NCBI GenBank assembly: GCA_015521685.1
Contig: WANT01000043.1
Span: 1-32,034, forward strand
Direction: 5' to 3'
Source of the DNA: Aeropyrum sp.
GTDB lineage: Archaea; Thermoproteota; Thermoprotei_A; Sulfolobales; Acidilobaceae
Length of the DNA stretch: 32,034 bases
Of the stretch, positions 24,458 through 29,049 are shown piece by piece. Below the pieces are notes generated by a model. It saw only the letters and a program-made list of their open reading frames with translations. It was not told the DNA's origin and did no database searches. A program made the position numbers and the translations under genes. Positions within the stretch are counted from its first letter, which is position 1. Every line of letters begins with the position of its first letter.

Positions 24458-26161
24458 TCAGTCTAGCTGGACGCTCTCCACAATCTTCCTCACTATCTCC
24501 TCTGGATCCTGGCTCTCTCCGTCTATCGGCGGTAGGTCTATGTTCCTGGCGACGAGGCGGATGAGAGACTCCTTAATCTTCCTGACCTCCTCCTCTCTGG
24601 GCGGCTGCCACTTCTCGGGGGGCCGTATGAAGTAGGCGAGGCTGAGGGCCACCTCTGGTATGTACTTCGCTAGGGTTATGCTCCTCTTTATAGCCTCCTG
24701 CTCCCTGGCCTTCCTGGATAGGTATATTCTCAGCTTTCTAGCGATCTCCTGTACGGCGTTCCTAATCTCGGACTCTATCTCGGGGACGTCGCTGACGCTC
24801 TCCTTGCCGACGCCCTTGTATGGGACTTTGGTGCTCGCTATGTGCACTAGAACGACGAGGGGTGCTGGGAAGTCTATGTTGTATTGCTTCCAGTTTATGC
24901 TGCTGACTACCTTGTAGCTCACGTCCTCCCTCTCCTCGTATAGTAGGGGTATCTTGTTGGCGTACCTCAGGAGGAGAGGCTCATCCCTGCTCTCTATGGA
25001 GCCCCCGTACGCTATCCCAACCTCGACTATGAAGGGGTGACCCCTATGGGCCTTCGGGCTCCTTGTGACCGCCCCGACCCACTCGGGGGCGAACATCCTC
25101 CTCAACCCTATCTCGATGATGTCGCTGCCTATGGGGCTGAGGTAGTCGCTCTTGGGAGACCTGAAGGGGTACTCCATGAGCGCGTCCACAAGCCTCCTGA
25201 GAAGCCTCTCCCTACCCTTCCTCAGTAGCTCCCTCGGCTTGAGCTTGGGGTCTATGCCGTACCGCTCGAGGAAGTCTACCGCCGTCTTCTCCCCTATGCT
25301 CTGGAACTCTGTAACCAGCAGGTCCTTCAGAGTCTTAGCCCGGGTAGACCTTATTATCGACTTGAGCTGCTCTATGTCGACGCCGTGTGGATGGGGTTTG
25401 GCCTCCTTGGGCGGCTTGGGCATCCTCCTAGTGGTCCTCGGGAAGTAGAGTATCTCGCCGTCGGGCGTCTCAAGGACTATCTCGGCGTAGGGCGCTATGA
25501 CGGCCGTCCTCTTCACGTACTCCAGTATCTTGCTCCTAGCCCTGCTCCAGTCCCCCTCGAGGGTTAGAGTGACCTTTGTCCCGTGCCACGACCCCCTCTT
25601 GTTCCACTCGCCTTTCTCCAGGATCCTGGGCTCGTTCCTCTGCACGTCGATCATCAGCCGCATCATGTGCACGTATTGGGACCCCTTGGTGGCGCTGAAG
25701 ACCTCAACAGGGGTGCCAGCAGTCATCTGGCCGTAGAGGACGGCGGCCTTCACCCCCAAGCCATACATCCCCCTGGTCTGCCTGATCACGTACTTGCTGC
25801 TGAAGAGGACCTTGCCGAACGCCATGGCCATGCTAGTTACGGGGACTCCAACGCCGTTGTCCTCCACACTTATAACGTAGCGGGGGCGCGAGCCGTCCCC
25901 CTGGGAGGGCTCTGGAACGGGGGCTATGGATATGTGTATCCAGGGGAGTATACCCTTGGCGTCTGTGGCGTCGAGGCTGTTCTCCACAAGCTCCCTCACA
26001 GCCTGGTATAGGGCCCTGGTGGGGTTAGAGAAGCCTGCTAGCTCCTTGTTCTTGGCGAAGAACTCCGCTACACTCATCTCCCTATACTTCTCCCCAGTAC
26101 CGCCGCCCCTCTGGTCGGCAGTCCTGGCTCTCCCCCTACTCCTCTGCACCGAGGCGCTCAA
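24458..26161 (-). CDS. top6B: DNA topoisomerase VI subunit B
   Basis: ATPase subunit, a GHKL-fold enzyme that dimerises on ATP to drive strand passage. The 567-residue protein holds [13 protein letters not shown] (Bergerat N box with catalytic Glu and Asn), [10 protein letters not shown] (G1), and [18 protein letters not shown] (G2), then the helix-two-turn-helix insert (about residues 230-310) and the transducer domain. The TTG at 26161 gives a basic N-terminal tail (about 28 residues) before [17 protein letters not shown]-like box at 26181-26190 (minus strand) would make the mRNA leaderless. It is the first gene of the top6B-top6A operon and divergent from the small twin-CX3C gene. Confidence 0.97.
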
Positions 26162-26181
26162 GCCTAGCTAGACACCCCCAG

Positions 26182-26190
26182 CTATACCCT
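26182..26190 (-). promoter_or_regulatory. Candidate TATA box of the top6B-top6A operon
   Basis: The minus strand reads GGGTATAGC about 25 bases before the TTG at 26161. A second AT-rich candidate (CTTAACAATA) lies near 26202-26211. Confidence 0.4.
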
Positions 26191-26306
26191 TGGCTCTAGG
26201 CTATTGTTAAGCGGGCAGGCTCAGGCCCACGAAACTATTAAGGAGGGCTGAGGCTATATGCTGAACAATCCGCGCAGAGTACTCTATCAGGCTCCGGTCG
26301 ACATCC

Positions 26307-26316
26307 AAATATATAG
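26307..26316 (+). promoter_or_regulatory. Candidate TATA box of the twin-CX3C gene
   Basis: AAATATATAG is centred 22 bases before the TTG at 26333, which matches a leaderless transcript and supports this small reading frame. Confidence 0.5.
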
Positions 26317-26332
26317 TAGGGTCTAGCCGGGA

Positions 26333-26494
26333 TTGGCGCAGGCCTGCAGAGATGGGATTCCCAGGGACTTGGTGCTGGAGAGGTGTCTAGAGCTCTGTAG
26401 GAGGAGGCTCGAGCCCCTCATGAGCGGTTCCGAGGCTAGGTGTGTGGAGGAGTGTCTTAGGCATGCTGACAGGCTCCTCTGCTCGAAGCGTTAA
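26333..26494 (+). CDS. Unannotated 53-residue twin-CX3C miniprotein
   Basis: A reading frame from TTG 26333 to TAA 26492-26494. The protein is helical in character, rich in Arg, Glu and Leu, and has six cysteines: Cys5, Cys18, Cys22, Cys37, Cys41 and Cys50. Two CX3C pairs (CLELC and CVEEC) are separated by 14 residues, with Cys5 and Cys50 outside. That is the spacing of the small Tim and related helix-hairpin proteins that hold disulfides or metal. I know no archaeal family of this kind, and any similarity may be convergent. A TATA box stands in leaderless position, while top6B is divergent. Function unknown: a disulfide-stabilised hairpin or a metal site is inferred from the cysteine pattern. 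Confidence 0.6.
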   Translation: MAQACRDGIPRDLVLERCLELCRRRLEPLMSGSEARCVEECLRHADRLLCSKR

Positions 26495-26501
26495 TTGCTG
26501 T

Positions 26502-26537
26502 GTCTCCACACCATATTTCTCCTAGCGTCTCCACACC
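26502..26537. repeat. Paired direct repeats around a TATA-like element upstream of the CoxL-type gene
   Basis: GTCTCCACACC occurs at 26502-26512 and 26527-26537, 25 bases apart (about two and a half helical turns). A TATA-like CATATTT (26512-26518) lies between them. The arrangement suggests a regulator-controlled promoter for the molybdenum hydroxylase gene. Confidence 0.5.
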
Positions 26538-26559
26538 TAATTGCGGGGGCTAGAGGGTC

Positions 26560-28836
26560 TTGTATAGTAGGTGGATTGGCTGGAGGTATTCTGGCCGCGG
26601 CGTGGCTAGGCTTGAGGACCTGAGGCTCCTCCGCGGCGCTGGGAGGTATCTCGATGATATTAGGCTTGACGGCATGCTTTACGCCAGCTTCGTGAGGTCC
26701 GAGTACCCGCATGCCAGGATCAAGAGGGTCGACGTTTCTGACGCTCTCAAGGCTAGCGGGGTCGTGGCGGCTCTAACCTACTCTGACATAGAGGGGCGGA
26801 TAAAGCCTTGGAGCTTCAAGAGCCCCTCGAGCCCCATGTACCCTCTCGCGGGGGATAGGGTAAGGTATGTTGGGGAGCCGGTTGCTGTTGTGGTCGCTGA
26901 AGACCCCTACAAGGCTGAGGACGCGGCTGAGCTGGTGCAGGTCGACTACGAGCCCCTCGAGCCCGTGGTAGACCCCATCAAGGCCATGGAGCCTGGGGCT
27001 CCGAGGGTGCACGAGGAGGCCGAGCGCAACATAGCTTTCAGGAAGAAGCTGTCGTGCGGGGATGTGGCTAGGGAGCTTGCTCGGGCTGAGGTCGTGGTCG
27101 CCGACAGGCTATGGATAGGCAGGAAGTATGCCGCCAGCCTCGAGCCTAGGGGTGTTGTGGCCAGCTACTCGGGCGGGGAGCTCACCGTGTGGGTCTCGAC
27201 TCAGACTCCCCACGACCATAGGGACGAGCTTTTGGAGAGGCTGGCGAAGCCTCCGCGCTCTGTCAGGGTCATACAGCCCGACGTTGGAGGGGCTTTCGGG
27301 GCCAAGATAGAGGTGTATCCGGAGGAGGTTGTGGTGCCCTACCTAGCTATGCTGCTCGGCAGGCCTGTCAAGTGGGTGCCCAGCAGGAGGGAGGACGCAG
27401 TATCCACCACCCACGGGAGGGATGTCGGCGCCGAGCTAGAGGTTGCGGCAACTAGGGGTGGGGAGATAAGGGCGGTTAGGGGTAGGATTATAGCGGATGT
27501 GGGCGCCTACCCCCTAGGCGTGTGGCTGCCCCTGACAGCCGCCAAAATACTGCCTGGAGCCTACAAGATTAGTAGCGCTGAGGTCGAGGTCCTCGCTGTC
27601 TACACCAACAAGACCCCGCTGGCAGCATACAGGGGTGCCGGGAGGCCTGAGGGCATATTCTTCATTGAGAGGATGGTAGACCTCCTAGCCGACGAGCTAG
27701 GGCTGGACCCAGCCGAGGTTAGAGCTAGGAACCTTGTGACCCCCGAGATGATGCCGTACGAGAATTGCTTCGGCTGGAAGTACGACTCCGGCGACTACGT
27801 GTCTACCCTGAGGAGGGGCCTGAGCCTCCTTAGGGTTAGAGAGCTCGAGGAGTGGGCCTCAGGGGAGAGGGCTAGGGGCAGGCTTGTGGGGGTGGGGTAC
27901 GCATTCTACGTTGAGATAACTAGTGGGGGGCCGTTCGAGACGGCTCGAGTCACTCTCAAGGAGGATGGGAGTGTCGAGATAGCCGTCGGCTCGACGCCAA
28001 CGGGGCAGGGTGACGCTACTGGCTTCGCACAGCTCGCAGCCGACATGCTTGGAGTGCCTATGGAGAGCGTTAGGGTTGTGTGGGGCGACACCTCCGTTAT
28101 CGAGGAGGGTGTCGGCACCTTTGGCAGTAGGACGCTGACTGTGGGTGGGGGTGCGGTTATAGACGCGGTCTCCCAGGTCCTCGAGAGGCTAAGGTCCAGG
28201 GCTGGCGAGGTCCTCGGGATACCTGAGGGCAGGGTAGCCTACAGGCCTGGAGAGTTCTACGACATGCTAGAGCCTGATAGGGTGATAGGGCTGGCGGACC
28301 TGGTCCGGAGGGTATACCGGGAGATGGGAGAGTCGGCGCTGGAGGTGGTCTCCGCCTACTCGAAGTACGACCCGAAGACGCCTGTATACCCCTACGGCCT
28401 TCACGTGGCTGTAGTTGAGGTTGACCGCGGCACTGGGAGGGTGAGGGTGCTCGAGTATAGGAGTCTGGATGACGTCGGGAGGGTTATAAACCCGGTCCTG
28501 GTTGAGGGGCAAATTGTGGGGGGCGTCCTGCAGGGGATCGGCGACGCACTCTACGAGGAGATGAAGTACGGCGGCGACGGCCACCCCCTCACCCTGAGCC
28601 TCTCGGACTACGGCGTACCCACGGCGATGGAGGCGCCTGAAAAGGTTGAGATCCACATCCAGGAGACGCCTACTCACCACCCTCACGGGACTAGGGGTGT
28701 AGGGGAGATTGGGACTATAGCTGCCCCGCCTGCTATAGCGAGGGCTGTGGAGAACGCTCTGGGAGGAGCGTTGAGGGTTAGGAGGCTACCTATAAGCCCG
28801 GAGGAGATATTGAGGGCTCTAGAGTCGGCTAGGTGA
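26560..28836 (+). CDS. Molybdenum hydroxylase large subunit (CoxL/aldehyde oxidase family)
   Basis: Molybdopterin-cytosine-dinucleotide-binding large subunit of the xanthine dehydrogenase/aldehyde oxidase/CO dehydrogenase family, 758 residues. Family motifs: DLRLLRGAGRYLDDI near the N-terminus, DVGGAFGAKIEVYPEE, the active-site loop AYRGAGRPEG (about residues 355-364; form II, unlike the Cys-containing loop of CO dehydrogenase), GQGDATGFAQLAADML, GTFGSRTLTVGGGAV, and TRGVGEIGTIAAPPA with the catalytic Glu (about 715). It thus more likely oxidises an aldehyde or heterocycle than CO. The FAD and 2Fe-2S subunit genes are not adjacent, which is unusual. TTG start at 26560 is uncertain. Confidence 0.9.
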   Translation: MYSRWIGWRYSGRGVARLEDLRLLRGAGRYLDDIRLDGMLYASFVRSEYPHARIKRVDVSDALKASGVVAALTYSDIEGRIKPWSFKSPSSPMYPLAGDRVRYVGEPVAVVVAEDPYKAEDAAELVQVDYEPLEPVVDPIKAMEPGAPRVHEEAERNIAFRKKLSCGDVARELARAEVVVADRLWIGRKYAASLEPRGVVASYSGGELTVWVSTQTPHDHRDELLERLAKPPRSVRVIQPDVGGAFGAKIEVYPEEVVVPYLAMLLGRPVKWVPSRREDAVSTTHGRDVGAELEVAATRGGEIRAVRGRIIADVGAYPLGVWLPLTAAKILPGAYKISSAEVEVLAVYTNKTPLAAYRGAGRPEGIFFIERMVDLLADELGLDPAEVRARNLVTPEMMPYENCFGWKYDSGDYVSTLRRGLSLLRVRELEEWASGERARGRLVGVGYAFYVEITSGGPFETARVTLKEDGSVEIAVGSTPTGQGDATGFAQLAADMLGVPMESVRVVWGDTSVIEEGVGTFGSRTLTVGGGAVIDAVSQVLERLRSRAGEVLGIPEGRVAYRPGEFYDMLEPDRVIGLADLVRRVYREMGESALEVVSAYSKYDPKTPVYPYGLHVAVVEVDRGTGRVRVLEYRSLDDVGRVINPVLVEGQIVGGVLQGIGDALYEEMKYGGDGHPLTLSLSDYGVPTAMEAPEKVEIHIQETPTHHPHGTRGVGEIGTIAAPPAIARAVENALGGALRVRRLPISPEEILRALESAR

Positions 28837-28857: not shown

Positions 28858-29049
28858 ATGGGGTCTAGGAGGCGGTTGAAGGCTCTACTAGTGGCTGCAG
28901 CCGTAGCCGTGGTCTCGTACAAGCTGGCGCTCTCCTTCGCAGCCTCTGTAATAAAGGGTGCGATGAGCCTAGTCGTAATGATATCAGTACTCTCCGCGCT
29001 CATGGCCATAGTATTAATCTGGCTTGTCGCCAGCAGGAGGGGTGGTTAG
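28858..29049 (+). CDS. Small two-helix membrane protein
   Basis: A 63-residue protein with a basic start (MGSRRRLK), two hydrophobic helices (about residues 8-30 and 37-57) and a basic end (SRRGG). This positive-inside pattern suggests both ends lie in the cytosol. It begins 21 bases after the CoxL-type gene and overlaps the AGOG gene start by eight bases, so it belongs to the same transcript. No family was recognised. Coding character is plausible from the hydrophobicity and context, but it could be a chance frame. Confidence 0.5.
   Translation: MGSRRRLKALLVAAAVAVVSYKLALSFAASVIKGAMSLVVMISVLSALMAIVLIWLVASRRGG

Follow-up and report, generated by a model that had tools for sequence, protein, structure and literature searches.

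The described proteins closest in arrangement to the open reading frame reported here are the small Tims (Tim8, Tim9, Tim10, Tim12 and Tim13), the bacterial copper storage proteins (Csp1 and Csp3) and the N-terminal helical hairpin of RNase P protein 4 (Rpp21/Rpr2). The frame has the twin CX3C motif of the small Tims and may share their helix-loop-helix, in which one outer and one inner disulphide would be expected. However, the frame does not match their family model, has two further cysteines, belongs to a prokaryotic host without an intermembrane space or Mia40 and has no relatives with which to form a hetero-hexamer. In addition, its predicted model has no fold neighbor at E≤0.001 in the PDB or in BFVD. 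The zf-Tim10_DDP family (PF02953) gave no match at E≤10 by hmmscan or in a six-frame search of the frame's own genome, although a very faint match could have been lost to the filters of HMMER. The Csp proteins likewise hold several cysteines on helices, as is predicted here, but each Csp monomer forms a four-helix bundle and carries far more cysteines than the frame, which has no Pfam or NCBIfam match. Lastly, the hairpin of RNase P protein 4 resembles the frame without gaps in a single sequence (L113). The frame, however, lacks a zinc ribbon, does not match the PF04032 (Rpr2/Rpp21) profile, which includes that ribbon, and its likeness is not significant once L113 is excluded. The frame is thus outside every known family tested. 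It is a plausible orphan miniprotein, at about even odds against an open frame that arose by chance.

The frame, its start codon and its neighbors

The window, meaning the whole stretch of 32,034 nucleotides that was analyzed, is contig C43 of a 1.44-Mb Aeropyrum genome in 68 contigs. The frame is a 53-codon orphan ORF at 26333-26494 on the plus strand, with a TTG start and a TAA stop (MAQACRDGIPRDLVLERCLELCRRRLEPLMSGSEARCVEECLRHADRLLCSKR). Translation of the window places six cysteines in it: C5, C18, C22, C37, C41 and C50. Four of these form the motif CX3C-X14-CX3C (CLELC-X14-CVEEC), with one extra cysteine beyond each end. The first CX3C (C18-LEL-C22) is encoded at 26384-26398 and the second (C37-VEE-C41) at 26441-26455; the codons of C5 (26345-26347) and C50 (26480-26482) lie outside the twin motif, and all are on the plus strand. 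The coordinates, strand, length of 53 residues and cysteine spacing given by the sequence-only reading were all correct when the sequence was read again.

A TTG start is common in the host genome (200 of 575 long ORFs), and TTG is the commonest start in Aeropyrum pernix, at 52% (PMC5911459). A G at position -3, which is enriched ahead of A. pernix starts (PMC5911459), is also present before the TTG of the frame, and no clear Shine-Dalgarno sequence was found there. A second in-frame TTG (26369-26371, plus strand) lies at residue 13. Should transcription start a few bases past 26333, translation from this second TTG would still yield 41 residues, with five of the six cysteines retained.

The frame sits in a 398-nt gap between two divergent genes, whose identities, proposed from the sequence alone, are borne out by Pfam matches. 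On one side is the gene for DNA topoisomerase VI subunit B (top6B; 24458-26161, minus strand; PF09239, E 6.3e-65). On the other is the gene for the large subunit of a molybdenum hydroxylase of the xanthine dehydrogenase/aldehyde oxidoreductase family (26560-28836, plus strand), with the MoCoBD_1/2 and Ald_Xan_dh_C domains (PF02738, PF20256 and PF01315) and an AYRGAGR motif. Two side observations concern this neighborhood. First, a 63-aa hydrophobic miniprotein is encoded at 28858-29049 (plus strand) between the molybdenum hydroxylase and AGOG glycosylase genes; it has a 47% identical counterpart (L044) in the same place in G005, one of the two nearest genomes, and is thus conserved, unlike the twin-CX3C frame. 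Secondly, in G003, the other nearest genome, the orthologue of the hydroxylase large subunit (L055/L048, G003:C1:481215-483487) is split between two reading frames, with one piece at 481215-482129 that includes a TGA and an overlapping one at 482105-483487, which indicates that it is frameshifted or mis-sequenced there.

A TATA-like element (CCAAATATATAG) lies at 26305-26316 on the plus strand, with TATATA at 26310-26315. Counted from the TTG, AATATA begins at -25 and TATATA at -23. The TATA-like sites that precede gene starts in the host genome have a main cluster at about -48 to -42 and a minor one at -29 to -25, and the AATATA of the frame falls in the minor cluster. The leaderless TATA box proposed earlier is therefore present as an element at a possible leaderless distance, but such a site occurs in about 6% of random 11-nt slots, so the promoter evidence for the frame is weak.

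Coding character, conservation and the chance explanation

The chance explanation, to which we give a little less than even probability, holds that the frame is open by accident, in intergenic DNA that changes fast, and that its cysteine pattern is a coincidence noticed after the fact. An open frame of this size is indeed easily obtained: some ORF of 40-70 aa was present in 68% of shuffles of the 398-nt gap, and there is nothing unusual about a run of 55 codons without a stop. The cysteine pattern was compared with chance over the host genome. The scan covered 1,436,899 bases, with three small contigs (C10, C42 and C68) masked as N. Among 631 intergenic ORFs of 40-70 aa, one twin-CX3C frame with a spacer of 8-20 residues was seen, and 0.25 were expected per dinucleotide-shuffled genome. 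At the DNA level, the twin pattern at the spacing of the frame (a spacer of 42 nt) was no commoner in the family than the reversed pattern used as its control.

The coding character of the frame argues against chance. A codon model was trained on the host genome's own long ORFs and applied to intergenic frames. Of the intergenic ORFs of 40-70 aa, 37 scored at least 0.18 bits/codon, compared with 4.8 expected in shuffles; thus, frames with such a score are mostly non-random. The frame itself scores 0.18-0.21 bits/codon, the higher value coming from a model trained on the window, and under that model the other five reading frames of 26333-26494 have negative scores and contain stops. The codon criterion alone was reached in 2.7% of local shuffles, with the model trained at 53% G+C and the contig at 59%. 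The twin motif and the codon score occurred jointly once in the genome but never in 40 shuffled genomes or in 20,000 shuffled versions of the local gap; because the pattern was picked after being seen, the shuffle figures for it are not clean probabilities. In addition, among 1,373 intergenic ORFs of 30-90 aa this frame alone combined at least six cysteines with such a codon score. A further point against chance is an unusually confident fold predicted from the single sequence, described below. The view that this is an undescribed frame with a patterned set of cysteines is thus supported, and its coding character is better than chance.

Conservation points the other way. Searches that covered the five other genomes of the genus (two of which are finished, at 1,669,696 and 1,595,994 bases), 197 genomes in the order and 398 in the phylum, as well as 40 near relatives, GTDB contigs, IMG/VR and plasmids, gave no relative of the frame, and no paralogue was found in its own genome. 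G003 and G005, the nearest genomes, both keep the two neighbor genes, but the central part of the gap fails to align with either, and no comparable frame is present in their syntenic gaps. The weak matches that did appear, at E 5e-4 to 9e-4, were rejected. In G003, a phmmer match at 1305848 (E 5e-4) contains a stop and is read in a different frame from the 241-aa ORF that surrounds it. Of the matches in the order search, that in G123 contains four stops and that in G143 proved to be Rpr2, the RNase P subunit. Small ORFs with comparable scores were conserved in three of four cases when 400 kb of G005 was compared (four ORFs only), and the missing conservation of the frame therefore counts against a gene. 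The sequence-only reading had named relatives with a broken frame or lost cysteines as evidence against the frame. What was found is a failure of conservation, which goes part of the way towards that outcome. Furthermore, the frame is absent where the neighborhood is conserved, so its position beside topoisomerase VI is functionally uninformative and gives no hint of a partner.

The predicted hairpin and the state of its cysteines

The reading that we place first, although we hold it to be slightly short of an even chance and the chance frame nearly equal to it, is that of an orphan small gene at the species level encoding a disulphide-locked helical hairpin in the cytosol, possibly a heat-stable binding or scaffold miniprotein. 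Its expression, disulphide pairing and function are the parts that we infer. AlphaFold2, given the single sequence, predicted an antiparallel pair of helices at residues 11-26 and 32-50, which contain the first and second CX3C, respectively (mean pLDDT 79, pTM 0.59). For a 53-aa non-coding frame antisense to the AGOG gene, which as one control only is a thin comparison, no secondary structure was predicted (pLDDT 55.8, pTM 0.12). The twin motif has its midpoint at residue 29.5 (18+41 = 22+37 = 59), within the predicted turn; therefore, an antiparallel hairpin would pair C18 with C41 and C22 with C37. The cysteines of helix 1 deviate from its hydrophobic face by no more than about 20 degrees. 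Those of helix 2, however, point 50-90 degrees off the hydrophobic face, with C50 opposite that face, and this weakens the disulphide-hairpin picture. Of the earlier proposal that the frame has the arrangement of small Tims and other disulphide hairpins, the helical hairpin is retained, as an AlphaFold2 prediction of moderate confidence, and kinship with small Tims is not, since PF02953 was silent.

In the orphan-gene reading, the product would be a two-helix hairpin with helix 1 at about residues 11-26, a turn near P28-S33 and helix 2 at about residues 32-50. The facing CX3C motifs would be joined by two disulphides, C18-C41 on the outside and C22-C37 on the inside, and C5-C50 may form a third. 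These bonds would be made by the protein disulphide oxidoreductase (PDO) of the cell, and the locked hairpin could then serve some partner as a heat-stable binding or scaffold miniprotein. Cytosolic disulphides are widespread in crenarchaea, with PDO as the presumed catalyst (PMC3177088), and the host genome encodes a PDO gene that scored above its cut-off. Together these make the disulphide-locked hairpin the likeliest working model, and they uphold the earlier statement that hyperthermophilic crenarchaea are rich in disulphides. A more specific proposal, which we consider unlikely, is that a newly arisen, species-specific gene evolved its twin-CX3C disulphide hairpin independently of the mitochondrial small Tims in the oxidizing cytosol of a hyperthermophile. 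If expressed, the frame would provide a clear example of convergence on a mitochondrial chaperone hairpin, by an orphan miniprotein of an archaeal cytosol rich in disulphides, as well as a test case for the origin of new small genes. If it is not a gene, it illustrates that a striking cysteine pattern can arise once per genome without meaning.

Improbable alternatives: metal binding, RNA and RNase P protein 4

The product could also be a real orphan protein without disulphides, in which the reduced cysteines bind metal, either Zn, held by the four thiolates of the CX3C motifs, or Cu(I), held in a Csp-like dimeric four-helix bundle. This is improbable, but it is kept in play because Tim9 and Tim10, when reduced, each take up Zn at 1:1 with the four cysteines of the same twin motif as ligands (PMC3759932). 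In addition, Csp proteins hold Cu(I) by many cysteines that face into the cores of four-helix bundles (PMC5171941). However, the frame matches no metal-protein family, no metal transporter or regulator adjoins it and the host lineage favors disulphides.

A non-coding RNA gene or a 5' leader of the hydroxylase gene, with the frame incidental, would agree with the unassigned TATA-like element upstream but is very improbable given no Rfam match at E≤1 on either strand of 26000-26800, folding energies that equal those of shuffles (z 0.02 to 0.86 over the two strands) and a gap sequence that is not conserved.

It is just as doubtful that RNase P protein 4 gave rise to the frame through a stray duplication of its N-terminal helical domain. 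The G143 match (L113) is a bona fide Rpr2 (PF04032), with a gapless alignment of IPRDLVLERC to VPRDIALERC. However, the host genome has its own complete Rpr2 gene (C30:32539-32748), and no zinc-ribbon remnant follows the stop of the frame. A profile built from 29 RNase P protein 4 N-domains without L113 gave the frame an E-value of 8.9 and a rank of about 31 among 14,862 genome frames. Shuffles of the frame's own sequence matched its score against the N-domain profile in 0.3% of cases, and a common periodicity of helices is the probable reason. This identity was dropped on the basis of the L113-free profile and the genome's own Rpr2 gene. As a separate observation, the RNase P protein 4 of the genus (G000:C30:32452-32850 on the minus strand, L155, L157 and L161) has a divergent N-terminus; in four of the six genus genomes it matches the Pfam Rpr2 profile only from position 13 onwards.
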